A stretch of DNA of 64,000 bases from Herbaspirillum autotrophicum. Lineage in GTDB: Bacteria > Pseudomonadota > Gammaproteobacteria > Burkholderiales > Burkholderiaceae_D. Shown here in pieces: positions 14,463 to 38,158 of the stretch. The notes below the pieces were generated by a model that saw only the letters and a list, made by a program, of their open reading frames with translations, searched no databases and had not been told where the DNA came from. How positions within the stretch are numbered: the first letter of the stretch is position 1; each line of letters begins with the position of its first letter. A program made the translations under genes and the position numbers. The stretch lies in NCBI RefSeq assembly GCF_001189915.1, contig NZ_LFLS01000002.1:248001-312000 (forward strand). The letters are read 5' to 3'.

Positions 14463-15770
14463 ATGATTTCAGCACCAGACCAGGCAACCACGACCGGCGA
14501 GGAAGCCAGCCGTCCGCCCAAAGATTCCTGGCTCGGCAAACTCGGCCCGGGACTGATCACCGGCGCCGCCGACGATGACCCCAGCGGCATCGCCACCTAT
14601 TCGCAGGCCGGCGCGCAGTTCGGTTTCAATACATTGTGGACAGTGATTCTGACCTTCCCGCTGATGGTCGGGATTCAGGTCATCAGCGCCAAGATCGGCC
14701 GTGTCAGCGGGCGCGGGCTGGCCACCAATATCCGCCATCATTATCCGGCGTCCCTGCTGTATGGCATTGTCAGCCTGCTGCTGATTGCCAATACCATCAA
14801 CATTGCGGCCGATGTGGCCGCCATGGGCGATGCCCTGACCTTGCTGATCGGCGGGCCGTCGCATCTGTATGCGGTCGGCTTCGGGGTATTTTCCCTGTTG
14901 CTGCAGGTATTCATTCCCTACAACCGTTATGTGCGCGTACTCAAATGGCTGACGCTGGCCTTGCTGGCCTATGTCGGCACCGTATTCGTGGTACGCATTC
15001 CCTGGCTGCAAGTGATGCACGCCGCAGCAGTGCCGGCCATTTCCTGGAAACCGGAATACATCACCATGGTGGTCGCCATCTTCGGCACCACCATCAGCCC
15101 TTATCTGTTTTTCTGGCAAGCGTCGCAAGAAGTCGAAGACCTGATCGCGGCGCCGCTGGCGCGGCCCCTGGTTGATGCACCGGAACAGGCGCCGGCCAAC
15201 TTCCGCCGCATCAAGATCGATACCATCATCGGCATGGCGTTTTCCAATATCATCGCCTTTTTCATCATGCTGACCACCGCGGTCACGCTCAACATGCATG
15301 GCCTGACCGACATCCAGACTTCGTCCCAGGCCGCCACGGCATTGCGCCCGATTGCCGGCGAGTTCGCGTTCTGGCTGTTCAGCGCCGGCATCATCGGCAC
15401 CGGCTTGCTGGCCATTCCGGTACTGGCCGGCTCGGCTGCCTATGCCATGGCCGGCACCTTCAAGTGGAAAAACAGCCTGGAAGACAAACCGGCAGCCGCC
15501 AAACAGTTCTACAGCATCATCGCGATCGCGACCTTGCTCGGGGTAGCCATCTGCTTTGCGCCGATCGACCCGATCAAAGCCCTGTTCTGGAGTGCGGTGA
15601 TCAACGGCGTGATGTCGGTGCCGATCATGGTGGTCATGATGCTGATGGCCGGACGCCGCGACATCATGGGCAAATTCGTGATCAGCCGGCGGCTCACCAT
15701 TCTCGGCTGGATTTGCACCGGTGTCATGGCGCTGGCAGTGCTGGCCATGTTCTGGGGTTTCTTTGTCTAG
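14463..15770 (+). CDS. Nramp-related divalent cation transporter with altered metal-site motifs
   Basis: This 435-residue integral membrane protein has about eleven hydrophobic helices in the Nramp/SLC11 arrangement. Helix 1 carries DDDPSGIATYSQAG where canonical Nramps have DPGN. Helix 6 carries FGTTISPYLFFWQAS where canonical ones have a GATxMPH motif. Thus the coordinating Asn and Met of Mn/Fe transporters are both replaced (by Gly and Ser). Related proteins with altered sites include Nramp-related magnesium transporters, so substrate should not be assumed to be manganese. ATG 14463 follows an AGGATAACGG sequence. The stop codon overlaps that of the convergent TetR gene through a shared CTAG. 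Confidence 0.88.
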   Translation: MISAPDQATTTGEEASRPPKDSWLGKLGPGLITGAADDDPSGIATYSQAGAQFGFNTLWTVILTFPLMVGIQVISAKIGRVSGRGLATNIRHHYPASLLYGIVSLLLIANTINIAADVAAMGDALTLLIGGPSHLYAVGFGVFSLLLQVFIPYNRYVRVLKWLTLALLAYVGTVFVVRIPWLQVMHAAAVPAISWKPEYITMVVAIFGTTISPYLFFWQASQEVEDLIAAPLARPLVDAPEQAPANFRRIKIDTIIGMAFSNIIAFFIMLTTAVTLNMHGLTDIQTSSQAATALRPIAGEFAFWLFSAGIIGTGLLAIPVLAGSAAYAMAGTFKWKNSLEDKPAAAKQFYSIIAIATLLGVAICFAPIDPIKALFWSAVINGVMSVPIMVVMMLMAGRRDIMGKFVISRRLTILGWICTGVMALAVLAMFWGFFV

Positions 15771-16471
15771 AACTGCCGCCCGTCCGCCGGCGCCGGTGCC
15801 GGCGGTGATCCCGCCGTGTCGTCCTCACCGCCCCACAATTCGATCAGCAACGCCAGGTGCGCCCGGCGCCGCTGATCGATCGTGTGCGGCGCGTTATCGC
15901 CGAAAATGCTCTGCGCCACCATGGCGTAGATCAGCGGCGCCACCAGTAACCACGGTTCGCGGATCAGGATGCTGTCGGCCTTCTCTGCCCGGCCTTCAAG
16001 CAGCCGCTTCAGCATGATGCCCAGCACCGCCAGATGCGGTTCCACCACATTCCGGCGCCAGGCGCTGATCAGCGCCGGTACGCGGGTGCTTTCGGCGATC
16101 AGCAAGCGCAACATCGAAACCGCCGCCGGGTCTTCCAGCACCACATACAGCCGTTGCAGCAGCCATTGCGCCAATTGCCTGACACTGGTGCCAGCGGCGG
16201 CCGGCATGTCATGCAAGTCGGGCAAGCTGAGCCGCCGCGCCAGCAACATTTCGAAAATGTCGTCCTTGCTTTTGAAATGACAATAAATTCCGCCCTTCGA
16301 TAAACCGCAACGCCAGGCAATATCGTCAATCCGGGCGGCGGCAAAACCGCGTTCCGAAAATTCGATATGGGCGGCGTCAAGGATTTGCGCAATCCGCGCC
16401 GCCGCTGGCAAGCGCTGGCGTTTGCGCGGCATGCTGCAGTCGTCTGCAAGGATGGCATTCAAGGTGGGCAT
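15767..16471 (-). CDS. TetR/AcrR-family transcriptional regulator
   Basis: This 234-residue protein has an N-terminal TetR helix-turn-helix: ARIAQILDAAHIEFSERGFAA, then IDDIAWRCGLSKGGIYCHFKSKDDIFE. The C-terminal ligand-binding half (about residues 95-215) is mostly helical. It is transcribed divergently from the phaC operon, and a palindrome (16512-16525) lies between them, so it probably represses that operon, itself, or both. An acyl-CoA or fatty-acid-like ligand would fit the context but is a guess. An alternative start at 16432 (MPRKRQRLP) removes 13 poorly conserved-looking residues. Neither start has a clear ribosome site. Confidence 0.88.
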   Translation of the reverse strand: MPTLNAILADDCSMPRKRQRLPAAARIAQILDAAHIEFSERGFAAARIDDIAWRCGLSKGGIYCHFKSKDDIFEMLLARRLSLPDLHDMPAAAGTSVRQLAQWLLQRLYVVLEDPAAVSMLRLLIAESTRVPALISAWRRNVVEPHLAVLGIMLKRLLEGRAEKADSILIREPWLLVAPLIYAMVAQSIFGDNAPHTIDQRRRAHLALLIELWGGEDDTAGSPPAPAPADGRQF

Positions 16472-16511
16472 GAAGAAAAACCGGCTGATAAGTAATTTCC
16501 ACAGTAGATAC

Positions 16512-16525
16512 CGACCAGCCGGTCG
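16512..16525. promoter_or_regulatory. Candidate TetR operator between TetR gene and phaC
   Basis: CGACC-AGCC-GGTCG is a perfect inverted repeat with 5-base arms. It lies in the divergent promoter region only six bases before the FNR box of phaC. The size suits a TetR-family operator core. Position and symmetry are visible; binding is inferred. Confidence 0.4.
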
Positions 16526-16530
16526 ATAAG

Positions 16531-16572
16531 TTGATCTGCATCAAGCCATGGATGAAATCTTGTTACTACAAT
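16531..16572 (+). promoter_or_regulatory. FNR/ANR-dependent promoter of the phaC operon
   Basis: TTGAT-CTGC-ATCAA at 16531-16544 is an exact match to the FNR/ANR consensus TTGAT-N4-ATCAA. A -10 hexamer TACAAT sits at 16567-16572. If the box is centred at -41.5, as in class II FNR promoters, transcription starts at about 16579 and the -10 falls exactly on TACAAT. This implies activation under oxygen limitation and places the ATG at 16571 upstream of the transcript start. Confidence 0.75.
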
Positions 16573-16633
16573 GCAATCAGCTACTCATGAGGTAGTCACC
16601 CGTTCGTCACCCACTCGTTCAGATCGGACCATC

Positions 16634-18439
16634 ATGTCAGGCACCCGCACCAAGGCCAGTACAACAGTCCCGCCGGCAGTTGCAGCAACGACAACAGCTA
16701 CCCCGAGCCAGTTCGCCCAACTCGATCAACAGGTGCACGCCACGCTGGCGCGCCTGTCATCCTCGCTGTCGATTGCATCCGGGCTGCTGGCCGGCAGCGA
16801 CTGGGCGATGCATCTGGCGGTCTCGCCCGGCAAGCAACTGGAACTGTTGCAACTGGCATGGATGCAGGCGGCGCAGCTGACGCAATATGGCATGGCCAGC
16901 GCCTCTGCCGGCGGCAGTATCGGCGCGGATGCGACCCGACTGACGGCGGCGGCACCGATTGTCGACCGCCGCTTCAGCGCGCCTGAATGGCAACAGTGGC
17001 CCTTCAATCTGCTGCATCAATCCTTTTTGCAAACCGAACAATGGTGGGCCGCCGCCACGCAAGACATATGGGGCGTGGAAAAACATCACGAACAGGAAGT
17101 CGCATTCGCGGCCCGGCAATTGCTGGACATGTGCTCACCCGGCAATCAATTGCTGTCGAACCCGGAAGTGCTGCGCCAGACCATCGCCGAACACGGGCAA
17201 AATCTGGTGCGCGGTGCACAGCAGGCATTGCAGGACATTCAGCAACAATTGTCCCAGGCCCCTCGCAGCGATCCGGAAGGCTTTGCGGTGGGCCGCGAGC
17301 TGGCTATCACGCCGGGCCAGGTGGTGCTGAAAAATCAACTGATGGAATTATTGCAATATGCGCCGGCAAGCACTGCCGCCAAGGTCTATCCGGAGCCGGT
17401 CCTGATCGTGCCGGCCTGGATCATGAAGTATTACATTCTCGATTTGTCGGCCACCGATTCGCTGATCAACTATCTGGTGCAGCAAGGCCATACCGTCTTT
17501 TGCATTTCCTGGAAAAACCCCGGCCCGGCCGAACGCGATCTGGGCATGGATGATTATCTGCAAAGCGGCTTTCATGCGGCGCTGGATGCAGTATCGGCGA
17601 TGGTGCCGAAGCGCCGCGTGCATGGCGTCGGTTACTGTCTGGGCGGTACCCTGCTGGCGATTGCCGCTGCCGCCATGGCGCGCGATGGCGACCACCGGCT
17701 GGCGACACTGACCATGCTGGCAGCGCAGACCGATTTCAATGAACCCGGCGAGATCGGCTTGTTCATCGACGAAAGCCAGGTCAGTTTGCTGGAAGCACAG
17801 ATGGCCGAAGCCGGCGTATTGAAAGCCGAACAAATGGCCGGCGCATTTCAAATGCTGCGTTCGTATGACTTGCTGTGGTCACAACTGGTCAAGAAATATC
17901 TGCAGGGCGAAACCGGCAGCATGAACAATCTGATGGCCTGGAATGCCGATGCCACGCGCATGCCGGCGCGCATGCATTCGCAATACCTGCGCCGCCTGTT
18001 TCTCAATGACGATCTCAGCGAAGGCCGTTATCCGGTCAACGGCAAACCGGTGGCGCTCAGCGATATCGTGCTGCCGACGTTCATGGTCGGCACCCTCACC
18101 GATCATGTAGCGCCATGGCGTTCGGTCTACAAATTGCATTATCTGAGCCCGGCCGAGATCACCTTCGTCCTCACCAGCGGCGGCCATAACGCCGGCATCG
18201 TCAGCCCGCCGGGCAAGCCGCATCGCCAATATCAATTGATGCAACGCAAGGCCGGCGCGGTGTATATGCCGTCGGAACAATGGCAAGCCAAGGCGCCGCA
18301 GCATGACGGCTCATGGTGGCCGGCGTGGCAGGCATGGCTGGCCGCGCACTCCGGCGCCAAAGTCAAGCCGCCGTCACTGGGCAATCACGCCTACCCGCCG
18401 CTGGCGCCCGCGCCCGGTTCTTACATCATGGAGAAATAA
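16634..18439 (+). CDS. phaC: Class I poly(3-hydroxyalkanoate) synthase PhaC
   Basis: This 601-residue polymerase joins (R)-3-hydroxyacyl-CoA units into storage polyester on granules. The lipase-like box GYCLGG supplies the nucleophile Cys335; Asp490 (in DHVAPW) and His518 (in GGHNAG) complete the triad. The PhaC N-terminal domain covers roughly residues 60-230. Length fits class I synthases acting without PhaE or PhaR partners. An in-frame ATG at 16571 would add 21 residues, but it lies upstream of the transcript start predicted from the FNR promoter, so I choose 16634. It is the first gene of a nine-gene run, and fabI begins 1 base after its stop. Confidence 0.93.
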   Translation: MSGTRTKASTTVPPAVAATTTATPSQFAQLDQQVHATLARLSSSLSIASGLLAGSDWAMHLAVSPGKQLELLQLAWMQAAQLTQYGMASASAGGSIGADATRLTAAAPIVDRRFSAPEWQQWPFNLLHQSFLQTEQWWAAATQDIWGVEKHHEQEVAFAARQLLDMCSPGNQLLSNPEVLRQTIAEHGQNLVRGAQQALQDIQQQLSQAPRSDPEGFAVGRELAITPGQVVLKNQLMELLQYAPASTAAKVYPEPVLIVPAWIMKYYILDLSATDSLINYLVQQGHTVFCISWKNPGPAERDLGMDDYLQSGFHAALDAVSAMVPKRRVHGVGYCLGGTLLAIAAAAMARDGDHRLATLTMLAAQTDFNEPGEIGLFIDESQVSLLEAQMAEAGVLKAEQMAGAFQMLRSYDLLWSQLVKKYLQGETGSMNNLMAWNADATRMPARMHSQYLRRLFLNDDLSEGRYPVNGKPVALSDIVLPTFMVGTLTDHVAPWRSVYKLHYLSPAEITFVLTSGGHNAGIVSPPGKPHRQYQLMQRKAGAVYMPSEQWQAKAPQHDGSWWPAWQAWLAAHSGAKVKPPSLGNHAYPPLAPAPGSYIMEK

Positions 18440-18440
18440 G

Positions 18441-19208
18441 ATGCTGCCATCACTGCAAGGAAAAAAGGGATTGGTGGTCGGCATCGCCAATCAACACAGC
18501 ATCGCCTGGGGCTGCGCACGCGCCTTTCACGCTGCCGGCGCGGAATTGGCCGTGACCTGGCTCAATGACAAAGCCGAACCGTATGTAGCGCCGCTGGCGC
18601 AGCAACTGGACGCCGTGCTTGCGATGCCGCTCGATGTCGAGCAAGACGGTCAGATGGAAGCCGTGTTTGCCGCCATCGAACAACAATGGGGACAGCTCGA
18701 TTTCATCCTGCATTCGATTGCCTTCGCTCCGGCAGAGGATTTGCACGCGCGTGTCACCGACAGCTCGGCGGCCGGCTTCGCCCGCGCGATGGATATTTCT
18801 TGTCACTCCTTCATGCGCATGGCGCGGCTGGCCGAACCCTTGATGCGCAATGGCGGCTGCCTGCTGACCATGAGCTATCTCGGCGCCGACGAAGTGATTG
18901 CCAATTACGGGCTGATGGGTCCGGTCAAGGCAGCACTCGAAGCCAGCGTGCGCTACATGGCCACCGAACTCGGCCCCAAGGGCATCCGCGTCAGCGCCGT
19001 GTCGCCGGGGCCACTGGCGACCCGTGCTGCGTCCGGCCTGGCCGATTTTGATCAGTTGCTGGACGACGCCGCGCGCCGGGCGCCACTGCGACGGCTGGTC
19101 GATATCGATGATGTCGGCGCCTTGTGCACCTTCCTGGTCAGCGACGGCGCCCGTTCCATTACCGGCGACACCTTGTATGTCGATGCCGGTTATCACATTC
19201 TGGGGTGA
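18441..19208 (+). CDS. fabI: Enoyl-[acyl-carrier-protein] reductase, FabI family
   Basis: This 255-residue NADH-type reductase belongs to the divergent short-chain dehydrogenase group of FabI. The cofactor loop GIANQHSIAWG is at residues 14-24. The catalytic residues Tyr146, Tyr156 and Lys163 fall at the same numbers as in E. coli FabI (SYLGAD, then NYGLMGPVKAALEASVRYMA). The C-terminus has the usual GDTLYVDAGYHILG. It starts 1 base after phaC. Its place in a PHA/acyl-phosphate operon instead of a fatty-acid cluster suggests a specialised role, perhaps reducing enoyl intermediates as an electron sink at low oxygen. That role is inference; the housekeeping copy may be elsewhere. Confidence 0.9.
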   Translation: MLPSLQGKKGLVVGIANQHSIAWGCARAFHAAGAELAVTWLNDKAEPYVAPLAQQLDAVLAMPLDVEQDGQMEAVFAAIEQQWGQLDFILHSIAFAPAEDLHARVTDSSAAGFARAMDISCHSFMRMARLAEPLMRNGGCLLTMSYLGADEVIANYGLMGPVKAALEASVRYMATELGPKGIRVSAVSPGPLATRAASGLADFDQLLDDAARRAPLRRLVDIDDVGALCTFLVSDGARSITGDTLYVDAGYHILG

Positions 19209-19215
19209 ACACGGC

Positions 19216-20664
19216 ATGATGTCATTTCGTACAGCAGCACTGCCGTTGTCTGTCGTCGCCATGCTGGTGGCCGGTTGCAGTTCGATGGCGCCGGACTATG
19301 TGCGGCCGGCGCTGCCGGTGCCGGCACAGTATGACGCCGCCGCCCCGGCACCGGTACCAGCCGCGCTGGCCGGCTGGCGTACCTTCTTCAGCGATCCGAA
19401 ATTGCAGGCGCTGATTGAACAGGCGCTGCGCAATAATCGTGATGTGCGGATCGCCGTCTTGCGCGTGGAACAGGCGCGCGCCACGTATGGCATCCAGCGC
19501 GCCGACCTGTTTCCGGCCATCGGCGCGCAAGCCGGGCTGGATCGGTCCAGGGTACCGGGCGATCTGAATCTGACGCAACAACCGGTAATCGCCAGCCAGT
19601 ATCAGGTTGGCTTGGGTCTGGCCAGTTGGGAACTGGATTTCTGGGGCCGCGTGCGCAGCTTGCGCGACGCCGCGCTCGAAGAATATCTTGCCAGCGACGC
19701 CATGCAACGCGCCGCCACCGTGACGCTGATCGCCCAAGTGGCGCAAAGCTGGCTTGATCTGCGCGAACTGGATCAACGCATTGCGTTGGCGCAGCGCACG
19801 CTGGCGACGCGCCAGGAAAGTTACCGGATTTTTTCGCGCCGGGTAGAAGTCGGTTCCACCTCACGTCTGAATCTGACCCAGGTCGAAACCTTGTTGATTC
19901 AGGCACAATCGCTGACCGTACAACTGCAACAGGAACGCGACAGCAAACGCCACGCCCTGCAATTGCTGATCGGCGCCACGCCGGACTTGCCGGCGCCGTC
20001 GCTGAGCGCCGATGCCGCGCTGCCCGATACGCCCTTGCCGCCGGTGCCGGCCGGATTGCCCTCGGCCTTGCTGGAACAGCGGCCCGACATCGTCGCCGCC
20101 GAACATCAGCTCAAGGCGGCCAATGCCAATATCGGTGCCGCCCGCGCAGCGTTTTTCCCGCGCATTGCGCTGACCGGCTCCATCGGCACTGCCAGCGCCG
20201 AACTCAGTGGTTTGTTTGGCAGCGGCAGCCGGGCCTGGATATTTTCCCCGAACATTGCATTGCCGCTGTTCGATGGCGGTCGCCGCCGCGACAACCTCAG
20301 TCTGGCCGAGGCGCGCCGTGACAGCGCCGTCGCCGCCTATGAAAAAACCATCCAGGGCGCGTTTCGCGATGTCGCCGATGCCTTGTCGGCGCGACTCTGG
20401 CTGACCCGGCAATTGGAGATTGCCGGCAATGCCTTGCGCGTGCAGCGTGAACGCGCACGCTTGTCGCAATTGCGTTACGACAACGGCGCCGCGCCTTTTC
20501 TCGATGTGCTCGACGCCCAGCGCGACCTGCTCATCGCCGAGCAGCAACTGGTGCAGGTGCAGCGCGCCGTCCTGTCCAGCAACGTCAGCCTGTACACCGC
20601 ACTCGGCGGTGATGGCGGCCATGCTGCAACCCATCCTCTTCCGACTCCAGGCAATCCATCATGA
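19216..20664 (+). CDS. Outer-membrane efflux lipoprotein, NodT/OprM family
   Basis: This 482-residue TolC-like channel subunit has a lipoprotein signal (lipobox LVAGC, cysteine near residue 20). It contains two repeated outer-membrane-efflux domains with WELDFWGRVRSLRDAALEEYLAS in the first and the family hallmark EQRPDIVAAEHQLKAANANIGAARAAFFP in the second. It would form the exit duct for the adaptor and ABC proteins encoded next. The start is the first of two tandem ATGs at 19216, 7 bases after fabI; the ribosome site is weak. Its stop overlaps the adaptor start (ATGA). Confidence 0.92.
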   Translation: MMSFRTAALPLSVVAMLVAGCSSMAPDYVRPALPVPAQYDAAAPAPVPAALAGWRTFFSDPKLQALIEQALRNNRDVRIAVLRVEQARATYGIQRADLFPAIGAQAGLDRSRVPGDLNLTQQPVIASQYQVGLGLASWELDFWGRVRSLRDAALEEYLASDAMQRAATVTLIAQVAQSWLDLRELDQRIALAQRTLATRQESYRIFSRRVEVGSTSRLNLTQVETLLIQAQSLTVQLQQERDSKRHALQLLIGATPDLPAPSLSADAALPDTPLPPVPAGLPSALLEQRPDIVAAEHQLKAANANIGAARAAFFPRIALTGSIGTASAELSGLFGSGSRAWIFSPNIALPLFDGGRRRDNLSLAEARRDSAVAAYEKTIQGAFRDVADALSARLWLTRQLEIAGNALRVQRERARLSQLRYDNGAAPFLDVLDAQRDLLIAEQQLVQVQRAVLSSNVSLYTALGGDGGHAATHPLPTPGNPS

Positions 20665-21734
20665 TGTCTTCCCGCACCAAGAAACTGCTGGCAACGGCGC
20701 TCGCCGCACTGCTGGTCGCCGCTGCCAGTTATGCCTGGTGGCGCACTCACCCGACCGGTCCCGGAGCCGGCTTTGCCAGTGGCAACGGCCGTATCGAAGC
20801 GACTGAAATCGATGTCGCCGCCAAGTTGCCGGGGCGTTTGCAAGAGGTGCTGGTCAACGAAGGCGACTTCGTCAGCGCCGGCCAGGTATTGGCGCGCATG
20901 CAAGTGCAATCGCTGAGCGCCCAGCGCGACGAAGCACGCGCCCAGCAACAGCAGGCACTGGCCAGCGTGGCCAGTGCCGAAGCGCTGGTGGCAATGCGCC
21001 AAAGCGACCATCAGGCGGCGCTGGCGGTGGTGACCCAGCGTGCCAGTGAACTCGATGCCGCGCAACGGCGGCTGGCGCGTTCCGAAACACTGGTGCGCGA
21101 AGGCGCGTCGTCAGAACAGGAAGTCGATGATGACCGGGCCCGCGTGCGCAGCTTGCAAGCCGCGCTGAATGCGGCGCAGGCGCAGGCCGCTGCCGCGCGT
21201 ACTGCAATCGATGCCGCCCGCACCCAGGTCAGCGGCGCACGCGCCAGCGTGACGGCGGTGCAGGCCACGATTGCCCGGATTGAAGTCGATCTCACCGATG
21301 GCGCACTGGTGGCGCCGCGCGCCGGCCGCGTGCAATACCGGATTGCGCAACCGGGCGAAGTGCTCGGCAGCGGCGGCAAGGTACTCAATCTGGTCGACCT
21401 CAGCGATGTCTACATGACCTTCTTCGTCCCCGAAACTGCCGCCGGCAAGCTGGCGCTGGGCAGCGAAGTGCATCTGATACTGGACGCCGCGCCGCAGTAT
21501 GTGATCCCGGCGCGGGTCTCGTTCGTCGCCAGCACCGCCCAGTTCACGCCGAAGACCGTGGAAACCGCCAGCGAACGGCAAAAACTGATGTTCCGCGTCA
21601 AGGCCCAGATCGACCCGGCCTTGTTGCAGCAACATCTGAAACTGGTCAAGACCGGCTTGCCCGGCGTGGCCTGGGTCAAGCTCGATGGCCAGGCACTGTG
21701 GCCTGAAGCGCTGGCGGTCAAGGTTTCGCAGTGA
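20661..21734 (+). CDS. HlyD-family periplasmic adaptor, YhiI/YbhG-like
   Basis: This 357-residue membrane-fusion protein has one N-terminal membrane anchor (about residues 8-27), a split biotinyl-lipoyl domain ([29 protein letters not shown]), and a long Gln/Ala/Arg-rich coiled-coil hairpin around residues 80-200. A beta-barrel region follows with [30 protein letters not shown]. It would bridge the inner-membrane ABC pump and the outer-membrane lipoprotein. Start and stop overlap both neighbours by 4 bases, indicating translational coupling. Length and order match E. coli YhiI, which precedes RbbA and YhhJ. Confidence 0.92.
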
Positions 21735-24496
21735 CGCCAATATCCGCAGCAGATACTGGCGGCATGGTCGCCAGCGTGCGTCATGTCAGCCAGCACTACG
21801 GCAAGGTCGCGGCGTTGAGCGATATCACGCTGGCAGTGCCGGCGGCGCGCATGGTCGGTTTGATCGGGCCGGACGGCGTCGGCAAATCGAGCCTGCTGTC
21901 GCTGCTGGCAGGTGCGCGCGCGGTACAGCAAGGCACGGTTGAGGTACTGGGTGGCGACATGCGCGAAAAACAGCACCGCGATGCGGTCTGCCCGCGCATC
22001 GCCTATATGCCGCAAGGCCTCGGCAAGAATCTCTATCCCACCTTGTCGGTCGAAGAAAACCTGCAATTCTTTGGCCGCCTGTTCGGCCACGGCAGCGCCG
22101 AACGCCGGCGCCGCATTGACAGCCTGACCGCCAGCACCGGTCTGTCCGGCTTTCTGGCGCGCCCGGCCGGCAAACTGTCGGGCGGCATGAAACAAAAGCT
22201 GGGTCTGTGCTGCGCACTGATTCATGATCCCGATCTGCTGATTCTGGATGAACCGACCACCGGCGTCGATCCCTTGTCGCGCGCCCAGTTCTGGGACCTG
22301 ATCCAACAGATTCGCGGCCAGCGGCCCGGCATGAGCGTGATCGTCGCCACTGCCTATATGGAAGAAGCCGACCGCTTCGACTGGCTGGTGGCGATGGATG
22401 ACGGCCAGATTCTGGCCACCGGCACGCCGCAGGAATTACATCAGCGCACCGCCACGACATCGCTGGAAGCCGCCTTCATCGCCTTGTTGCCGGAACACAA
22501 ACGGCGTCAGCATCATGCCGTCAGCATTCCGCCGCTGGCCGCCGGTGCCGACGATGAAATCGCTATCGAAGCCAAGGGCCTGACCATGCGCTTCGGAGAC
22601 TTTGTAGCCGTCGACAATGTCGATTTCCGTATCCGGCGCGGCGAGATTTTCGGCTTTCTCGGCTCCAACGGTTGCGGCAAATCGACCACCATGAAAATGC
22701 TGACCGGTTTGCTGCCTGCCAGCGCCGGTCAGGCTTCCTTGTTCGGACGCGTGGTTGATCCGCGCGACATGGCGACACGCCGCCGCGTCGGCTACATGTC
22801 GCAGGCATTTTCGCTCTACGGCGAATTGACGGTGCAACAGAATCTGGTGCTGCATGCGCGCTTGTTCAGCGTGCCGCAAGCCGAGATCGCCGGACGCGTG
22901 CAAGAGATGGCAAGCCGCTTCAATCTTGAGCAAGTGCTTGATACGCTGCCCGAGCAATTGCCGCTCGGAATCCGTCAGCGCTTGTCGCTGGCAGTGGCGA
23001 TGGTGCACAAACCGGATTTGCTGATTCTGGATGAACCGACTTCCGGCGTCGATCCGGTGGCGCGCGACCTGTTTTGGCAACTGATGATTGATCTGGCGCG
23101 GCACGACCGCGTCACCATTTTCATCTCCACCCATTTCATGAATGAAGCCGAACGCTGCGACCGCATCTCGCTGATGCATGCCGGCCGCGTGCTGGTCAGC
23201 GCTGCCCCGGCGGCGCTGGTGCAGGACAGCGGTTGCGCCACGCTGGAACAGGCATTCATCGCTTATCTGCAACGGGCGGCCGGCACCGCCCCTGCACCTG
23301 CCACGCCTGCCGCACCGGCCATGACGACGGTCGAGGCCGCACCGGCGGCGGCCATGGCCGGGCAGCGCTGGCGTCACAGTTTGACGCGCGCCCTCAGCTA
23401 CACCCGCCGCGAAACGCTGGAATTGCAACGCGATCCGGTACGCGCCACGCTGGCGCTGCTGGGCACGGCGATCCTGATGTTCATCATCGGCTACGGCATC
23501 AACATGGATGTCGAGAATCTGTCGTATGCCGTGCTGGATCGCGATCAGACCGCATTGAGTCAAAGTTACGCCCTGAACATGTCGGGCTCGCGCTATTTCA
23601 TTGAACATGCGCCGCTGAGCGATTACGCCGACCTCGACCGCCGCATGCGCAACGGCGAACTGGCACTGGCAATTGAAATCCCGCCCGGTTTCGGACGCGA
23701 TATCGAACGCGGCGGCAAAGTGGCTATCGGCGCCTGGGTCGACGGTGCCATGCCGTTGCGCGCGGAAACCACACGCGGTTACGTGCAGGCCATGCACCAG
23801 ACCTGGCTGGCCGACATGGCCTTGCACCGGCTCGGCATCAGCAATGCCAGCGCCGGCACCATCGAAACCCGCTATCGCTACAATCCTGACGTCAAGAGCC
23901 TGCCGGCCATGATTCCGGCGGTGATCCCATTGTTGCTGATGATGATTCCGGCCATGCTGACCGCGCTCTCGGTGGTGCGGGAAAAGGAACTCGGCTCCAT
24001 TCTCAACCTGTACGTGACGCCGGTGACGCGGGCCGAATTCCTGCTCGGCAAACAACTGCCCTACATCGTGCTCGGCATGCTCAACTTCCTGTTGCTGACG
24101 CTGCTGGCGGTCACGGTATTTGGCGTGCCGGTGAAAGGCAGTTTCCTGACCCTGACGGCGGCGGCGCTGATCTTCGTGGTCTGCTCGACCGGCTTCGGCC
24201 TGCTGGCATCGACCTTCACCAACAGTCAGATTGCGGCGCTGTTCGTGACCATGATCGGCACCATCATTCCCTGTGTGCAGTTTGCCGGCCTGCTCAATCC
24301 GGTGTCGTCACTGGAAGGCATCGGCGCGCTGATCGGCCGGATTTATCCGGCCACCCACTTCCTGACCATCAGTCGCGGCGTTTTCAACAAGGCGCTCGAC
24401 TTCAGCAGCCTCGGCAATGCCTTCTGGCCGCTGTTGCTGGCCGCGCCGGTGATTCTCGGTCTGTCGGTGGCCTTGCTCAAAAAGCAGGAGTCTTAA
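21731..24496 (+). CDS. rbbA: RbbA-type ABC protein: two ATPase domains fused to an ABC-2 permease
   Basis: This 921-residue protein is close in length and layout to E. coli RbbA (911). The first ABC domain has Walker [10 protein letters not shown], signature LSGGMKQK and [13 protein letters not shown]. The second has GSNGCGKST, the RbbA-like variant signature LPLGIRQR, and [10 protein letters not shown] linker rich in Ala and Pro (about residues 515-540) leads to an ABC-2 membrane domain with six helices and a large extracytoplasmic loop. RbbA was first described as a ribosome-associated ATPase, but this gene context (adaptor, second permease, outer-membrane channel) supports an export role. 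The GTG start overlaps the adaptor stop. ATG 21764 is an alternative start. Confidence 0.92.
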
Positions 24497-24515
24497 TCAT
24501 GCAGGAATCCTGATC

Positions 24516-25643
24516 ATGCGCACTGCCCTCAACCACATCTACCGGCTCGGCATCAAGGAATTGTGGAGCCTGCTGCGCGATCCGATCATGCTGGTACTGA
24601 TCGTCTACACCTTTTCGCTGTCGATCTATGTCGCCGCCACCGCCATGCCGGAAAGTCTGCACAATGCCGCCATCGCCATCATCGATCAGGATGCGTCGCC
24701 GTTGTCGGCACGCATTGCATCCGGTTTTTATCCGCCGCATTTCAAGACCCCGGCGCTGGTCAATCCGGCGCAAGCCGATGCCGGTCTGGATAACGGCGAT
24801 TACACCTTCGTGCTCGACATCCCGCCCGACTACCAGCGCAATACCCTGGCCGGCCGCACCCCGGCAATCCAGCTCAATGTGGACGCCACCCGCATGAGCC
24901 AGGCGTTTACCGGCAACGGCTATATCCAGCAAATCGTGGCCGGCGAAGTCAGTGAATTTCTGCAACGTCACCGCAACGGCGTCAGTCTGCCGGTCGATCT
25001 TGAATTGCGCATGCGCTTCAATCCCAACCTGGAACAATCCTGGTTCGGATCGCTGATGGAAATCATCAACAACGTCACCATGCTGTCCATCATCCTGACC
25101 GGGGCGGCGCTGATCCGCGAACGCGAACACGGCACCATCGAACATTTGCTGGTAATGCCGGTGACACCCGCGCAAATCATGCTGGCCAAGGTGTGGTCAA
25201 TGGGACTGGTGGTATTGCTGGCGGCGCTGGCGGCACTGGTGTTTATCGTGCAGGGCGCGCTGCAAGTGCCGGTGCGCGGTTCGATTGCGCTGTTTGCACT
25301 GGTTGCCGCGTTGCATCTGTTTGCCACCACCTCGATGGGCATTTTTCTGGCGACACTGGCGCGCAGCATGCCGCAATTCGGTATGCTGCTGGTATTGGTG
25401 CTGTTACCCTTGCAAATGCTGTCGGGCGGTACCACACCACGCGAAAGCATGCCGGCGCTGGTGCAAGACCTGATGCTGGCAGCGCCGACCACCCATTTCG
25501 TGGCCGCCGGACAAGCCATTCTGTATCGCGGCGCCGGCATCGATGTCATCTGGCCGCAACTGTTGGCGATCATGCTTATCGGCGCCCTGCTGTTTGCCGC
25601 TTCACTGGGGCGCTTTCGCAAGACCATTGCACAAATGGCCTAG
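24516..25643 (+). CDS. yhhJ: ABC-2 type permease, YhhJ-like
   Basis: This 375-residue inner-membrane protein has one N-terminal helix (about residues 22-42), a large periplasmic domain (about 45-175), and a cluster of helices at the C-terminus. The conserved ABC-2 segment REREHGTIEHLLVMPVTPAQIMLAKVW is present. It should pair with the membrane half of the preceding RbbA-like protein, as yhhJ follows rbbA in E. coli (YhhJ, about 374 residues). The ATG has AGGAAT at 24503-24508. It is separated from rbbA by 19 bases and from the phasin gene by 36. Confidence 0.92.
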   Translation: MRTALNHIYRLGIKELWSLLRDPIMLVLIVYTFSLSIYVAATAMPESLHNAAIAIIDQDASPLSARIASGFYPPHFKTPALVNPAQADAGLDNGDYTFVLDIPPDYQRNTLAGRTPAIQLNVDATRMSQAFTGNGYIQQIVAGEVSEFLQRHRNGVSLPVDLELRMRFNPNLEQSWFGSLMEIINNVTMLSIILTGAALIREREHGTIEHLLVMPVTPAQIMLAKVWSMGLVVLLAALAALVFIVQGALQVPVRGSIALFALVAALHLFATTSMGIFLATLARSMPQFGMLLVLVLLPLQMLSGGTTPRESMPALVQDLMLAAPTTHFVAAGQAILYRGAGIDVIWPQLLAIMLIGALLFAASLGRFRKTIAQMA

Positions 25644-25679
25644 TTGTTTCTCTGTTGCTCTTTACTGGAAGGAATCACC

Positions 25680-26099
25680 ATGACCTCCGCTAACGATTTG
25701 CCGTTCTCGGCTTGCCGCACTCATCTCGACTTCTGGCTGCGTTCGGCACAGCTGTTGCAAGAGAATCAAGAACAATGGATGCGCCTGTGCACCCAGATCG
25801 CGCAAGAAGACATCCGCCTGCGACAAGCCGAAATGGCGCAGTTGCGGGAAGCCAAGGACTGGAACAGCCTGGCCTTGCTGGCGCCGATGGCCGGCTGGCA
25901 CAACGTTCAGGAACGCATGGCAGTATTGCAAGGGGTGGCGCAAACCGCCATCAACAGCCAGACCGCCTTGTATGCCGAATACCGCAAAGCGTGGGAAGAA
26001 TTGCAGGCCGGCGCCGGCTTGCCGGATGCCGGTCAGGCCCCGGCGACGCCGCCCGCCGCATCAACGCCAGCCAAACCACGCAGCCGCCGCACACGATGA
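25680..26099 (+). CDS. Phasin-like polyhydroxyalkanoate granule-associated protein
   Basis: This 139-residue protein lacks a signal peptide. Its predicted helical core (about residues 10-110) is rich in Gln, Trp, Leu and Ala, for example LDFWLRSAQLLQENQEQWMRL and later WHNVQERMAVLQGVAQTAINSQ. A Pro/Ala-rich tail with basic end (KPRSRRTR) follows. This pattern matches small phasins that coat PHA granules, and the gene is in an operon with phaC. GGAAGGAATCACC precedes the ATG at 25680, giving a strong ribosome site. Its stop overlaps the start of the MaoC-Pta gene (ATGA). Function is inferred from composition and context, not from an unmistakable motif. Confidence 0.7.
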   Translation: MTSANDLPFSACRTHLDFWLRSAQLLQENQEQWMRLCTQIAQEDIRLRQAEMAQLREAKDWNSLALLAPMAGWHNVQERMAVLQGVAQTAINSQTALYAEYRKAWEELQAGAGLPDAGQAPATPPAASTPAKPRSRRTR

Positions 26100-27553
26100 T
26101 GATGACAACTACCGCTGCCTCTGCACTACCCGCTGCCGAGCTTCAGGCCGACGATCTCGGCCTGATCCGCAACCGCGTATTCGATGAACTCGCCATCGGC
26201 GATTCAGCCCGAATTGTGCGTACCCTGAGCGCCGACGACATCAAACTGTTCGCTGTGTTGTCGGGCGATGCCAATCCGCAGCATCTGGACCCCGACTTTG
26301 CCGCGCATACCCGTTTCCATGGCGTGATCGCGCACGGCATGTATGGCGGCGCGCTGATTTCGGCGGTGCTGGGTACGCAACTGCCGGGGCCGGGTACGAT
26401 TTATCTGAACCAGACGCTCAAATTTGTGGCGCCGGTGCATATCGGCGACACGCTGACCACCAGCGCTACCGTGACCAGCCTTGAGCCGCTCAAGAAACAT
26501 GTAAAACTGGCATGCCTGTGTGTCAATCAGGATGGCGTCACGGTGATCTCCGGTGAGGCTGAAGTGATCGCGCCCACCGAGGCCATCGTGCGTGCCCGCA
26601 CCACGCTGCCGGAAGTGCGCCTGACCAGCAACGATCAGAACGGCGGCGTGCAATTGTTGCTCAACCATGTACGGCCGCTGGCGGCAGTCGTCACCGCCGT
26701 GGTACATCCCTGCGATGCGCTGAGCCTGTCGGGCGCGCTCGACGCGCACGCCGCCGGCCTGATCGTGCCGGTGCTGGTGGCGCCGCGCGAGAAGCTGCTG
26801 GGAGTGGCTGCTGCTGCCGGCCTCGACATTTCCGGTTTGCGCATAGAGGATGTGCCGCACAGCCATGCTGCTGCCGCACGCGCAGTGGAAATGGCCTTGC
26901 AGGGTGAAGTTGAAGTGCTGATGAAAGGCAGCCTGCACACCGATGAACTGATGTCGGCAGTGACCGGCTGTGTGGCGCTGCGCACCAAGCGCCGCATCAG
27001 CCACTGTTTCCTGATGCAGACCCCGGCCTATCCGCGCCCGTTCATCATCACCGATGCCGCCATCAATATCGCCCCCACCCTCGATCACAAGGCCGACATC
27101 ATCCGCAACGCCATCGACCTGGCGCATGCGATTGGCGTCGCCCGGCCACGAGTGGCGATTCTGGCGGCGGTCGAAACCGTCAATCCGGCCATGCCGGCCA
27201 CACTCGATGCCGCCGTGTTGTGCAAGATGGCGGAACGCGGTCAGATCAGCGGCGCCATCCTCGACGGACCGCTGGCGTTTGACAATGCGGTGTCGGCCAC
27301 TGCCGCGCGCATCAAGGGCATCGTCTCGGAAGTGGCCGGCCAAGCCGACATTCTGGTGGTGCCCGATCTGGAGAGCGGCAACATGCTGGCCAAGCAACTG
27401 GAATACATGGGCCACGCCGCCAGCGCCGGTATCGTACTCGGCGCACGCTTGCCGATTGTACTGACCAGTCGCGCCGACTCGCGCGAAAGCCGCATCGCGT
27501 CCTGCGCGCTGGCCTTGCTGCTGGCGCATCGTTACCGGGGCACGCCGCCATGA
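26096..27553 (+). CDS. Bifunctional enoyl-CoA hydratase (MaoC) / phosphate acyltransferase (Pta) fusion
   Basis: This 485-residue fusion has a MaoC hot-dog hydratase domain at about residues 1-165, with the catalytic-type segment SGDANPQHLDPDFAAHTRFHGVIAHGM. A phosphate acetyl/butyryltransferase domain at about 185-480 carries GSLHTDELM, ITDAAINIAPTLDHKADIIRNAIDLA and LDGPLAFDNAVS. The first domain interconverts enoyl-CoA and (R)-3-hydroxyacyl-CoA, the phaC substrate. The second converts acyl-CoA to acyl-phosphate for the kinase encoded next. Three tandem ATGs occur at 26096, 26099 and 26102; I list the first, which overlaps the phasin stop. The fusion class is known in proteobacteria. The preferred acyl chain is unknown. 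Confidence 0.9.
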   Translation: MMMTTTAASALPAAELQADDLGLIRNRVFDELAIGDSARIVRTLSADDIKLFAVLSGDANPQHLDPDFAAHTRFHGVIAHGMYGGALISAVLGTQLPGPGTIYLNQTLKFVAPVHIGDTLTTSATVTSLEPLKKHVKLACLCVNQDGVTVISGEAEVIAPTEAIVRARTTLPEVRLTSNDQNGGVQLLLNHVRPLAAVVTAVVHPCDALSLSGALDAHAAGLIVPVLVAPREKLLGVAAAAGLDISGLRIEDVPHSHAAAARAVEMALQGEVEVLMKGSLHTDELMSAVTGCVALRTKRRISHCFLMQTPAYPRPFIITDAAINIAPTLDHKADIIRNAIDLAHAIGVARPRVAILAAVETVNPAMPATLDAAVLCKMAERGQISGAILDGPLAFDNAVSATAARIKGIVSEVAGQADILVVPDLESGNMLAKQLEYMGHAASAGIVLGARLPIVLTSRADSRESRIASCALALLLAHRYRGTPP

Positions 27554-28764
27554 GCGATCCGCAGATGAATGAATTGATTCTGGTACTCAACTGCGGTTCC
27601 TCAAGCATCAAGTTCGGCTTGTTCGAAGCCGGTCCTGAGCAGTTGGCACGACAGGCAATCTGGCGCGGCAAGGCGGACGGCATCGGTAGCCACAACGCGG
27701 TGCTGGAGATTCACGGCAGCGCCACCAGCGCCTTGACCCTGTCTGCGGAAAATCCCTACCACGATGCGCTCGGCGCCATCCGCACCGAGGTGCTGGCCTA
27801 TCTGACGCACACCGGCAGCCGGCTGCTCAGCATTGCCCATCGCGTAGTGCATGGTGGCGCCAAATATTTTGCGCCGGTGCGGGTCGATCATGCGGTGCTG
27901 GAAGATTTGCGCAGCTATATCCCGCTGGCACCGTTGCACCAGCCGTTTGCGCTGGAAGCGATTGAAGCCTTGCTGAACTCGCATCCGGAATTGCCGCAGG
28001 TAGCTTGTTTCGATACCGCGTTTCACCACACCGTACCGCGCGTCGAGCAAATGTTGCCGCTGCCGCAAGCGGCCTGGGACCGTGGCTTGCGGCGCTACGG
28101 TTTTCATGGCTTGTCGTATGAATACCAGTCACTGGTGCTGGCGGAACGCTATGGCGATGCCGCCCGTGGCAAAACCATCGTCGCCCATCTCGGCAGCGGT
28201 GCCAGCCTGTGCGCCATGCAAGACTTGCGCAGTGTCGCCACCACCATGGGCTTTTCCGCCCTCGATGGCCTGATGATGGGCACCCGCTGCGGCACTCTCG
28301 ACCCCGGCGCAGTCTTGTATCTGCTGGAAATCGAAAAGCAGACGCCGCAACAGATCGGCCAGTTGCTGTATCGCGAGTCGGGTCTGCTCGGCGTGTCCGG
28401 AGTGTCTTCCGATCCGCGCATCCTGTTGCAGCAGGAACAAGATAATCCGGCGGTGCGCGATGCTCTCGATTTGTATGTGCGCCGCATCGTCCGTGAAATC
28501 GGCGCCCTGACCGCCGTGCTCGGCGGTCTCGACTTGCTGGTCTTCACTGCCGGTATCGGCGAAAACAATGCCGAAATACGCAGCCGCATCTGCCACGCCC
28601 TGTGCTTTCTCGGCATCGGTCTCGATAACGTCGCCAATGCCGGCAACGCCGCCGTCATTTCGCGCAGCGGACGACAACCGCTGGTGGCGGTGGAAGCCAC
28701 CAATGAAGAATGGATTGCCGCCTCACACGCCCGTCAGTTGCTGACCGTACAACAACACCACTGA
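27550..28764 (+). CDS. ackA: Acetate/propionate-family kinase (AckA type)
   Basis: This 404-residue kinase converts acyl-phosphate and ADP to a carboxylate and ATP. Visible family motifs are LNCGSSSIKF near residue 13, RVVHGG near 97, CFDTAFHHT near 155, AHLGSGASLC near 213, GLMMGTRCGTLDPG near 239 and FTAGIGENNAEIRSRIC near 335. It begins inside the stop codon of the MaoC-Pta gene and closes the nine-gene run. Together the two enzymes make ATP by substrate-level phosphorylation, sensible under the oxygen limitation implied by the FNR box. Acetate, propionate or butyrate as substrate cannot be decided here. Confidence 0.94.
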   Translation: MSDPQMNELILVLNCGSSSIKFGLFEAGPEQLARQAIWRGKADGIGSHNAVLEIHGSATSALTLSAENPYHDALGAIRTEVLAYLTHTGSRLLSIAHRVVHGGAKYFAPVRVDHAVLEDLRSYIPLAPLHQPFALEAIEALLNSHPELPQVACFDTAFHHTVPRVEQMLPLPQAAWDRGLRRYGFHGLSYEYQSLVLAERYGDAARGKTIVAHLGSGASLCAMQDLRSVATTMGFSALDGLMMGTRCGTLDPGAVLYLLEIEKQTPQQIGQLLYRESGLLGVSGVSSDPRILLQQEQDNPAVRDALDLYVRRIVREIGALTAVLGGLDLLVFTAGIGENNAEIRSRICHALCFLGIGLDNVANAGNAAVISRSGRQPLVAVEATNEEWIAASHARQLLTVQQHH

Positions 28765-28931: not shown

Positions 28932-29756
28932 ATGACATACAAAACCATTCTGGTACACGTCGATCAGTCCAGCCATGCAGCAGCCAGAATCAAGGCCGCA
29001 GCCGAACTGGCGATTGCCCAGGAAGCGCATCTGGTCGGCACCGCCGCCACCGGCATCTCGCGCTACATTTACTCGGATGGCGCCGCTTTCGTCGGCTCGG
29101 TCATCGATACCCTGCGCCAACAGGCCGGTCAGGCGCTGGACCAGTTCGATGAAATCGCGCGCCGGCTCGGGGTGCATTCGTATGAACGGCGTCTGATCGA
29201 TGACGACCCGGCCAGCGCCCTGGCGCTGCAGGCGCGCTACAGCGATCTGGTAGTGGTCAGCCAGGAAGATTTCGGCGAGCGCAGTATCGGCGACGCCGGC
29301 GACTTGCCGGAATATGTCATGCTCAATTGCGCGCGCCCGGTCCTGATGATTCCCTATGCCGGCAAATTCGAACACATCGGCCGCCATGTCCTGATTGCCT
29401 GGGACGGCAGCATGGAAGCCACGCGCGCCATCACCAGTGCGATTCCGCTCTTGAAACGGGCACGTTCGGTGACGGTGGCGCTGTTCAATCCCTCCGCCAG
29501 CGACGATGCCCACGGCCAGCAACCGGGTGCCGATATCGGCCTGTATCTGGCGCGCCATGGCATCCGTGTTGAAGTCGCACAGGAAACCACCGAACTCGAT
29601 ATCGGCAACGCCCTGCTCTCGCTGGCCGCCGACAAAGGCAGCGATCTGATCGTGATGGGCGGCTATGGCCACACCCGTTTCCGTGAAGTCTTGCTGGGCG
29701 GCGTCACGCTCACGGTTCTCAGAACCATGACGGTGCCAGTGTTAATGTCGCATTAA
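28932..29756 (+). CDS. Universal stress protein, tandem UspA domains
   Basis: This 274-residue cytoplasmic protein has two UspA folds. The first starts at KTILVHVDQSSHAAAR. The second starts near residue 152 with HVLIAWDGSMEATRAI and ends in the ATP-loop-like GGYGHTRFREVLLGGVT, which has the G-x2-G-x9-G spacing but Gly in place of the following Ser/Thr. Double-domain Usp proteins of this type are often induced at low oxygen in beta- and gammaproteobacteria. The ribosome site is AAGGTGA just before the ATG. An FNR-type box upstream links it to the preceding operon, but its own promoter suggests separate transcription. Confidence 0.92.
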   Translation: MTYKTILVHVDQSSHAAARIKAAAELAIAQEAHLVGTAATGISRYIYSDGAAFVGSVIDTLRQQAGQALDQFDEIARRLGVHSYERRLIDDDPASALALQARYSDLVVVSQEDFGERSIGDAGDLPEYVMLNCARPVLMIPYAGKFEHIGRHVLIAWDGSMEATRAITSAIPLLKRARSVTVALFNPSASDDAHGQQPGADIGLYLARHGIRVEVAQETTELDIGNALLSLAADKGSDLIVMGGYGHTRFREVLLGGVTLTVLRTMTVPVLMSH

Positions 29757-36899: not shown

Positions 36900-37724
36900 T
36901 CAATCACCCGGACCGGCAGCGGCGCCCTTGCCTTCAGACAACGGTTGCCGCTGTTTGCGATCCTCGCGCACCAGCCAACAAGCGGCTCCTGTCAGCATCA
37001 ACGCCAGTGCGTACCAGGTGAGAGCATAAACCAAATGATTGTTATGGAAGGAAATGACGGTCAAACCACCCGCCGGATAACGTATTTGCGCGTTGTCGCC
37101 AGCCACCGGCGCACTGGCGGCGGCATCGATGAAGTATGGCGCCACCTGTTGCAATCCGTGCGCGGCGGCAATGGCAGCCGCATCGCGCGAGAACCAGCGA
37201 TTGCCGGCGGCATCGTTGTGCCGCAGAAAGCCGCCGCCCGGCTCGCTCATGCGCAGCAGACCACTGACGCTGGTGATGCCGGCCGGTGCCGCACTGACTT
37301 CAGCCGCCGCGCCGGCCGGAATGTAGCCGCGATTGATCAGCGTGATGCTGCCGTCGGCACTGCGCAATGGCGTCATGAGCCAGAAGCCGCTGCCGAGATC
37401 GGTCACGGCTTGCACTTTGGTACTCAATGCATCGAGGAACACGCCACTGACGCGCACGCGCCGGTATTCATCATTGGCGGCACTGATCTGCGACCAGTGC
37501 GCCGGATCGGGTGCCGCTACCGGTGCTGCATGCACCCGTTGCTGCACCCGTTCGATCAGATCAAGCTTCCATTGCAGTCGCTTGAGTTGCCAGGTACCGA
37601 GTCCGAGCAATCCCGCCAACAAGATGCCCGCGCACGCCAGCAGCAAGATCAGCGTGCGGCGTGAACGCCGCACCGGTGCAGACGGCGCAATGCCATCTGC
37701 ACTGCGGTGGGGGGCCGGACTCAT
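36900..37724 (-). CDS. SURF1-family oxidase assembly protein
   Basis: This 274-residue protein has the SURF1 layout: an N-terminal helix (about residues 24-44, LILLLACAGILLAGLLGLGTWQ), a periplasmic domain with WQLKRLQWK, FLDALSTKV and LINRGYIPAG, and a C-terminal helix near 235-255. SURF1 assists heme insertion in subunit I of heme-copper oxidases. It is encoded directly after cyoD with a 4-base overlap. It is therefore probably dedicated to this quinol oxidase, as known for quinol-oxidase-linked SURF1 in Paracoccus. The tail is rich in Gly and Ala. Confidence 0.92.
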   Translation of the reverse strand: MSPAPHRSADGIAPSAPVRRSRRTLILLLACAGILLAGLLGLGTWQLKRLQWKLDLIERVQQRVHAAPVAAPDPAHWSQISAANDEYRRVRVSGVFLDALSTKVQAVTDLGSGFWLMTPLRSADGSITLINRGYIPAGAAAEVSAAPAGITSVSGLLRMSEPGGGFLRHNDAAGNRWFSRDAAAIAAAHGLQQVAPYFIDAAASAPVAGDNAQIRYPAGGLTVISFHNNHLVYALTWYALALMLTGAACWLVREDRKQRQPLSEGKGAAAGPGD

Positions 37725-38158
37725 TTCATGTTCGGCATGGAGGGCATATTGTTCATGTCATGCATCGATTCCGGCACGGTTTCATGCATCATGCTCGGCA
37801 TCATGTTGTGATTCAGGTGATACATCACCCACAGCGAACCAGCCAGCATGATGACCACGATCATGATGGTAAAGATCAGTCCCAGCATGGTCCAGCCGCC
37901 TTCGGACTTGGTATTCATGTGCAGGAAGTACACCATGTGCACCACGATCTGCACCGCCGCCAATCCCAGCAACACCATGCCGGTGGTGCTCGATTTGTCG
38001 AATACCTTGCCCATCACCAGCCAGAACGGAATGGCCGTCAGGATCACCGCCAGCACGAAACCGGTCATGTAACTCTTGAAGCTGCCGTGATCGGCGTGCA
38101 TGTGATCGTCATGGTGGCCATGATCATCATGCGCCGGATGTTCTTGATGCGCGCTCAT
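37721..38158 (-). CDS. cyoD: Cytochrome bo3 quinol oxidase subunit IV (CyoD)
   Basis: This 145-residue subunit has three membrane helices, including YMTGFVLAVILTAIPFWLVM, VLLGLAAVQIVVHMVYFLHM and MLGLIFTIMIVVIMLAGSLWVMYHLN. The N-terminus is His/Asp-rich (EHPAHDDHGHHDDHMHADH) and the C-terminus is Met/His-rich (NMMPSMMHE...MPNMK). Both extensions are longer than in typical CyoD (about 110 residues) and could bind copper or other metals. Start ATG 38158 overlaps the cyoC stop, and its stop overlaps SURF1. It probably helps assembly of subunit I. Confidence 0.92.
   Translation of the reverse strand: MSAHQEHPAHDDHGHHDDHMHADHGSFKSYMTGFVLAVILTAIPFWLVMGKVFDKSSTTGMVLLGLAAVQIVVHMVYFLHMNTKSEGGWTMLGLIFTIMIVVIMLAGSLWVMYHLNHNMMPSMMHETVPESMHDMNNMPSMPNMK

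Follow-up and report, generated by a model that had tools for sequence, protein, structure and literature searches.

A predicted two-signal promoter and a built-in RbbA-type exporter in a polyhydroxyalkanoate and acyl-phosphate operon of Herbaspirillum autotrophicum

We analysed a stretch of 64,000 nucleotides from Herbaspirillum autotrophicum (the window), in which nine collinear genes on the + strand, phaC through ackA (16634-28764), combine enzymes of polyhydroxyalkanoate (PHA) and acyl-phosphate metabolism with an RbbA-type ABC export pump (Table 1). Pumps of this type are known from Escherichia coli, where the operon is made up of yhiI, rbbA and yhhJ, and to our knowledge there is no agreed substrate for RbbA-YhhJ pumps. 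Work on PHA synthesis and on phosphotransacylase-kinase genes under oxygen limitation usually involves no exporter. In H. seropedicae, dksA-phaC2-fabI-Hsero_2407 is described as a direct target of Fnr1 (PMC5934665), a triple fnr mutant is reported to have 100-fold lower phaC2 transcript levels (PMC5862806), and phaC2 is placed in one operon with pta-ackA (PMC8222739). The group D1 phaC clusters of Burkholderia sensu lato contain phaC, a fused phaJ-pta, ackA and fabI, and an ORF-pta-ackA-fabI operon of S. meliloti is described as phosphate-controlled (PMC8231600). For the low-oxygen-activated (lxa) locus of Burkholderia cenocepacia, Table 2 of PMC4981469 lists PhbB, PHA polymerase BCAM0297, phosphate acetyl/butyryl transferase BCAM0298, a set of outer-membrane lipoprotein, HlyD, ABC ATPase and permease that is absent in J2315, and a further ABC transporter set, BCAM0302-0304; the fold changes in that paper compare two isolates, not oxygen levels.

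The window has the gene content of a group D1 cluster (phaC, phaJ-pta fusion, ackA and fabI) and differs from such clusters by its pump; the word efflux is absent from the main text of PMC8231600. With the H. seropedicae phaC2 operon it shares the phaC-fabI core, whereas in that species dksA comes first and there is neither pump nor TetR operator. Three loci of the same genus (L047, L048 and L050) carry a DksA/TraR-type gene (Pfam-checked in L047) with phaC, fabI and a fusion of MaoC and phosphotransacylase (MaoC-Pta), and we infer that Hsero_2407 is this fusion. The preliminary description of the window had pointed to a likeness to the lxa locus and could not confirm the gene set; the likeness is borne out, as Table 2 of PMC4981469 includes a PHA polymerase, a transacylase and ABC exporters. 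The lxa loci of B. cenocepacia and B. contaminans have in common with the window or its genome PHA polymerase, transacylase, exporters, universal stress proteins and an FNR-family regulator (PMC4981469, PMC4505428), but comprise about 50 genes against nine genes and a neighbouring universal stress protein gene here. PHA polymerase, phosphotransacylase and ABC exporter lie in one neighbourhood in the window; a large island with six universal stress proteins and its own FNR regulator was not seen, since one universal stress protein was found among the 10 neighbouring proteins scanned, and the two genes of the genome for FNR-type proteins with an N-terminal cysteine motif lie elsewhere, on contigs C13 and C41. 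The FNR-type gene on C13 adjoins a FixG-like gene, the neighbour being read from its sequence. Cation P-type ATPase genes neighbour two of the related clusters (L043, 4464-7148, Pfam-checked; L047, 11892-14453), as in lxa. In genome G285 (locus L042), a short-chain dehydrogenase/reductase (SDR), PhaC, a transacylase and a Zn-alcohol dehydrogenase are followed by an outer-membrane factor, HlyD, RbbA and YhhJ, with 56-73% identity to the window set; it differs from the window by a pump on the opposite strand and a transacylase lacking the MaoC half. E. coli, alone among the control genomes, matches the same RbbA family model as the window protein. The phaC-(phaJ/pta fusion)-ackA-fabI parts are already known; what is new is the variant with the built-in exporter and the predicted two-signal promoter. 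In the literature searched, no paper joined RbbA with polyhydroxyalkanoate.

We consider it probable that the nine genes form one low-oxygen operon driven by a promoter that combines a TetR-type operator with an FNR box. The perfect FNR box and perfectly spaced -10 hexamer claimed earlier before phaC were both confirmed. The box is centred at 16537.5, exactly at -41.5 from the start that TACAAT predicts, which is the arrangement of a class II FNR-dependent promoter, with the start site predicted from sequence. Because this predicted +1 lies at 16579, the phaC start is taken as the in-frame ATG at 16634 and not the ATG at 16571. The FNR box is the only perfect TTGATN4ATCAA in the window, where five sites with at most one mismatch were found against a shuffle mean of 1.45; the whole genome (6.01 Mb) contains 20 perfect sites and the reversed-pattern control gave 0. 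In the promoters of relatives, the -10 hexamers stand in the same register. The divergent TetR gene and its operator, absent from the preliminary description, are added here, and with them the operon promoter appears to be a new composite of TetR-type operator and FNR box. No description of a composite TetR/FNR promoter was found in the literature searched, which does not by itself prove that there is none. Low oxygen would allow FNR to activate the operon. The divergent TetR would keep the operon silent, blocking both the zone of FNR and RNA polymerase and its own promoter, until released by a ligand, presumably one linked to the pump substrate.

The operator and the FNR box are kept together before phaC-first operons of Curvibacter, Roseateles and one Burkholderiales genome (L060, L087, L095, L098, L101 and L106). 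They also stay paired where the pump stands alone, namely in G138, G237 and nine loci of the Herbaspirillum genus (L169, L170, L154-L156 and L158-L163). When spacings of 0-6 bp were scanned over the collected loci, 2 bp was found everywhere except in L169 (3 bp), and the reversed control gave 0; three further matches were the other strand of the same palindromes (L098, L101 and L106). The stand-alone Herbaspirillum-genus pumps (L154-L163) keep the operator/FNR pair with no TetR above 60 bits in the fetched stretch. The composite was then searched genome-wide, with the 2-bp spacing fixed and up to 2 mismatches allowed, in 300 sampled genomes of the order, 42 of which have RbbA, and in 34 genomes of the genus, 15 of which have RbbA. 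Three sites were found in the order sample and 10 in the genus sample, 11 of them distinct, and the reversed control gave 0. The composite promoter and the TetR gene track the pump, not phaC, in the genomes compared, because each of the 11 sites shares its strand with an RbbA gene lying 2.6-5.2 kb downstream, and 10 of the 11 have no pha genes behind them.

The TetR gene was also followed in 80 loci with the MaoC-Pta fusion, which are the best of 555 matches in named genomes and not a random sample, with 10 kb flanks; two of the loci, L046 and L069, come from the same genome, and L090 and L091 are near-copies. A TetR match above 60 bits was found in eight of these loci, all eight with a pump (Fisher P 0.0008, the loci not being independent). 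A TetR belonging to phaC was rejected, with no match above 60 bits in any of the 45 pump-less loci among these best 80; pump-less L118 has a weaker one (39% over 71 residues), 4 kb away from its fusion. Of the pump-less loci, 22 have an FNR-like box, and not one of these showed the operator palindrome; among pump loci it was present in 19 of 50, the case of L117 being apparently coincidental.

FNR boxes themselves precede phaC in 24 of 44 loci, where the expectation for a stretch of this length is 0.031; they precede the outer-membrane lipoprotein gene in 6/37, HlyD in 4/44, RbbA in 0/47, YhhJ in 0/47 and ackA in 0/89. Where the pump sits beside pha/pta genes but not behind fabI (L043, L044, L046/L069, L134 and L135), a perfect FNR box of its own directly precedes its first gene. 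The view that FNR control is confined to linked pumps was given up: an earlier strict scan of stand-alone pumps (TTGATN4ATCAA, at most one mismatch) had suggested no box in the genus, and a degenerate scan gave a conserved CTGACN6TCAA-type site in nine of its ten stand-alone pumps. In the Alphaproteobacteria loci L115, L117 and L123 the pump is divergent from phaC-fabI and an FNR-like box lies before HlyD. In a further locus of the genus (L049, 5531-6352) an FNR-type regulator with the cysteine motif stands between ackA and a universal stress protein gene.

The proposed regulation is well supported by comparison among the genomes, and the Fnr1 control of the pump-less H. seropedicae version argues by analogy for FNR control here. 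Several findings weigh on the other side. The composite is a minority form, present in 3 of the 42 RbbA genomes of the order sample and 10 of the 15 of the genus (39/42 and 5/15 are without it), and four pump-linked loci of the genus (G304, G306, G314 and G320) lack it. Loci with the best operator come from few genera, and the nine stand-alone Herbaspirillum pumps have a degenerate FNR half (CTGAC...) with no TetR gene above 60 bits in these nine loci. Repression by TetR is deduced from position alone. The same operon core exists without the pump in L047, L048, L050, L062, L064 and L065. FNR control of the pump is evidently not universal in these loci, because an FNR-like box with at most one mismatch was found in 15 of 37 stand-alone pumps (four with none) and at the 5' genes of 27 of 44 linked loci.

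It is possible, though we regard it as doubtful, that the locus is an ordinary FNR-controlled PHA-plus-acetate overflow operon such as H. seropedicae phaC2, with TetR acting only on its own gene and the pump serving general envelope stress. The control of the orthologous operon by Fnr1 (PMC5934665) and the placing of pta-ackA with phaC2 in one operon (PMC8222739) agree with such an operon, but operator and FNR box are adjacent at a fixed distance whether phaC or the pump comes first in the unit, which suggests joint control.

The preliminary description regarded a pump in the middle of the operon as unexplained by PHA physiology. It is no oddity, since 35 of the 80 loci have an RbbA-type pump less than 10 kb from MaoC-Pta. 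Of these 35 pumps, 31 are upstream and share the strand of the fusion, three are on the opposite strand (Roseovarius twice and Hyphomicrobiaceae, all divergent) and one is downstream. The 31 upstream pumps are preceded by phaC and fabI (11), fabI (15), phaC (3) or neither seen (2), so that fabI comes before the linked pump in 26 of 35 loci. The linked genera include Janthinobacterium, Curvibacter, Ramlibacter, Pseudacidovorax, Xenophilus, Acidovorax, Roseateles, Duganella, Pseudoxanthomonas and Roseovarius. Within the genus, 9 of 34 genomes have the full MaoC-transacylase fusion and the RbbA pump adjoins it in five of the nine. Comparison of gene order in other Burkholderiales, which had been proposed as a check, showed that the linkage recurs, although the core is also found without the pump: the order sample has 55 genomes with the full-length fusion and 14 with both genes (hand-read and recounted), and the two are less than 15 kb apart in four of the 14 (the H. 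autotrophicum genome itself, G064, G133 and G218).

These counts bear on the rival view of the pump as a passenger, brought by chance into an FNR operon as a mobile multidrug-pump cassette and without a low-oxygen role, which we hold to be unlikely. Its appeal is that the core exists without the pump in the same genus (L047, L048 and L050), that the pump stands alone elsewhere in 37 loci, and that the TetR resembles generic efflux regulators in the DNA-binding domain only. A passenger would, however, hardly be expected to be linked in several orders and in several arrangements, nor to have its own FNR boxes where it starts a unit. With the H. autotrophicum genome left out, 3 of 13 order genomes have the pair within 15 kb against 0.13 expected (P 0.0004), where the limit was set after seeing the matches and four of these assemblies are fragmented. 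In a tree built from 78 RbbA rows, the label linked or alone must change eight times, and well-supported branches force at least six of the changes. This tree was a quick search with several long branches; it used only rows with at least 850 aligned residues and left out L069, L091, and the copies of the window locus L011 and L022. Linked means here that the fusion is on the same fetched stretch (in L041 it is 13 kb away, and in L042 it is without MaoC), and the stretches of pumps called alone reach only about 7 kb upstream and 3 kb downstream. Also against a passenger, a different, distantly similar exporter set (HlyD, split ABC and permease, 29-51% similar) stands beside fabI, the MaoC fusion and ackA in L051, L052, L071 and L083. 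By these comparisons the pump is a recurrent partner and not a stray, and looks like a genuine component of the low-oxygen response. A DUF3141 protein (about 950-970 bits) lies between pump and MaoC fusion in Janthinobacterium and two other genomes (L059, 7670-9919; L040, 11034-13526; L039, 8325-11192).

The composite promoter, which picks out the pump genome-wide, predicts the timing of the pump, namely low oxygen together with a ligand. The recurrent link would point the search for a substrate to released metabolites of the linked acyl-CoA pathway, and it would give a testable function to part of the lxa locus, which the literature ties to anoxic persistence.

Table 1. Features of the operon and of its two flanks (positions in the window)
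Feature	Position	Strand	Remarks
TetR-family regulator gene	15767..16471	-	Divergent from operon; TetR_N 56.8 bits
TetR-type operator ACCGACCAGCCGGTCGATA, imperfect palindrome	16510..16528	+	2 bp before FNR box; conserved in relatives
FNR box TTGATCTGCATCAA	16531..16544	+	0 mismatches to TTGATN4ATCAA
-10 hexamer TACAAT	16567..16572	+	Class II spacing; predicted +1 = 16579
phaC, class I type PHA synthase	16634..18439	+	PhaC_N 182.6 bits; GYCLG motif
fabI, accessory enoyl reductase, SDR FabI type	18441..19208	+	NF005717 458 bits, over cut-off
Outer-membrane efflux lipoprotein, NodT type	19216..20664	+	TIGR01845 425 bits, over cut-off
HlyD/YhiI-like membrane fusion protein	20661..21734	+	PF13437, PF16576; NF002939 152.9 bits, under cut-off
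RbbA-type fused ABC-2 exporter, two ATPase domains and permease	21731..24496	+	NF033858
YhhJ-like ABC-2 permease	24516..25643	+	PF12698 121.5 bits
Phasin-like protein, weak call	25680..26099	+	Phasin_2 (PF09361) under gathering cut-off
MaoC (R-specific enoyl-CoA hydratase)-phosphotransacylase fusion, phosphotransbutyrylase type	26096..27553	+	NF006045 726 bits, over cut-off
ackA, acetate/propionate family kinase	27550..28764	+	TIGR00016 344.5 bits, over cut-off
Second FNR-like box TTGACCTGGATCAA	28804..28817	+	Before universal stress protein gene, just after ackA
Universal stress protein gene	28932..29756	+	Usp 70.8 bits

The nine genes follow each other with overlaps or gaps of 1-36 bases, as first described, and the coordinates and profile names bear this out; from phaC to ackA the junctions are gap 1, gap 7, overlap 4, overlap 4, gap 19, gap 36, overlap 4 and overlap 4. 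From this spacing we infer a single transcript. The claim that the operon contains no terminator stood, as terminator-like sites in the window were not above shuffles (7 against 11.0) and the sole one on the + strand inside the operon falls within rbbA. A separate promoter before the efflux or phasin genes, looked for in a promoter scan of the window, was found in none of the internal gaps, and promoter-like sites numbered 4 against 3.5 in shuffles. FNR box, class II spacing and gene junctions all support the earlier reading of one FNR-type operon. The second FNR-like box and the universal stress protein gene are probably a separate unit.

The transcript would encode, first, a tripartite ABC-2 exporter composed of the NodT-type lipoprotein, the HlyD/YhiI-like adaptor, the RbbA-type ATPase-permease and the YhhJ-like permease. 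RbbA scored 1585.6 bits against a cut-off of 1050 and aligned with positions 1-908 of the 909 of its model, placing it in the RbbA family. Second, it would encode PhaC, the accessory FabI, the phasin-like protein, the MaoC-transacylase fusion and the acyl kinase, a set that could process hydroxyacyl-CoA and, when respiration is limited, convert acyl-CoA to acyl phosphate and ATP. PhaC keeps the catalytic Cys, Asp and His in an alignment to the second PhaC of the genome, and its TIGR01838 score (542.2 bits) is below the class I PHA synthase cut-off of 622.65. The PHA synthesis assigned at first is uncertain, as H. seropedicae PhaC2 may not matter for polyhydroxybutyrate according to PMC5862806. 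For the phasin, a Phasin_2 match does exist, but it is weak, with E 0.002 and a score of 18.7 bits where the cut-off is 24.9; a homologue in L100 passes this cut-off with 30.1 bits. The MaoC-Pta fusion was confirmed, whereas its Pta half proved to be phosphotransbutyrylase-like, with phosphate butyryltransferase 7vg9 as nearest solved relative (228 bits).

This likeness could speak for a butyrate-type fermentation, in which 3-hydroxybutyryl-CoA would be converted to crotonyl-CoA by MaoC, to butyryl-CoA by the accessory FabI acting on CoA esters, to butyryl phosphate by the phosphotransbutyrylase domain, and to butyrate and ATP by the kinase, with PhaC and phasin as the storage side of one common pool. 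The transacylase half gave at most 58 bits with solved phosphotransacetylases and scored 283 bits with TIGR02706 against 69 bits with TIGR00651; the genome has a true Pta (344 bits) and a second FabI-like protein (47% identity to that of the operon) elsewhere; and fabI is the usual gene before the linked pump, as counted above. All the same we find such a fermentation rather improbable. The best NCBIfam name for the transacylase is still phosphate acetyltransferase (NF008852, 459.9 bits, over cut-off), and known FabI members act on acyl carrier protein esters. The kinase keeps the acetate-type Val in its HRVVHGG motif, a residue shared by 84 of the 85 motif matches from 100 loci, and the Val or Ala at this position sets the size of the pocket. 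Finally, PMC8231600 reads these genes as acetate metabolism. A propionate kinase was considered and rejected: the best solved propionate kinases matched with 240 bits against 232 for acetate kinases, a small gap, and two of them (7fj7 and 1x3m) have Ala at the position of the acetate-type Val while 4xh4, also named propionate kinase, has Val, so the acid was not assigned.

Going beyond the two-signal low-oxygen operon, exporter and acyl-CoA/polyester enzymes might be conceived as one machine, in which MaoC, an enoyl-CoA-reducing FabI, phosphotransbutyrylase and kinase would, at low oxygen, ferment hydroxyacyl-CoA or stored polyester for ATP and NADH re-oxidation, and a hydrophobic acyl by-product would be exported by RbbA and sensed by TetR. 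If this were true, the promoter would be an AND gate of low oxygen and acyl overload; we consider it very doubtful.

Outside the operon, the window contains an open frame of 2940 codons on the + strand (5608-14430), upstream of an Nramp gene. Genes for SURF1 and cytochrome oxidase subunit I are located on the - strand at 36900-40783, about 8 kb from the operon.

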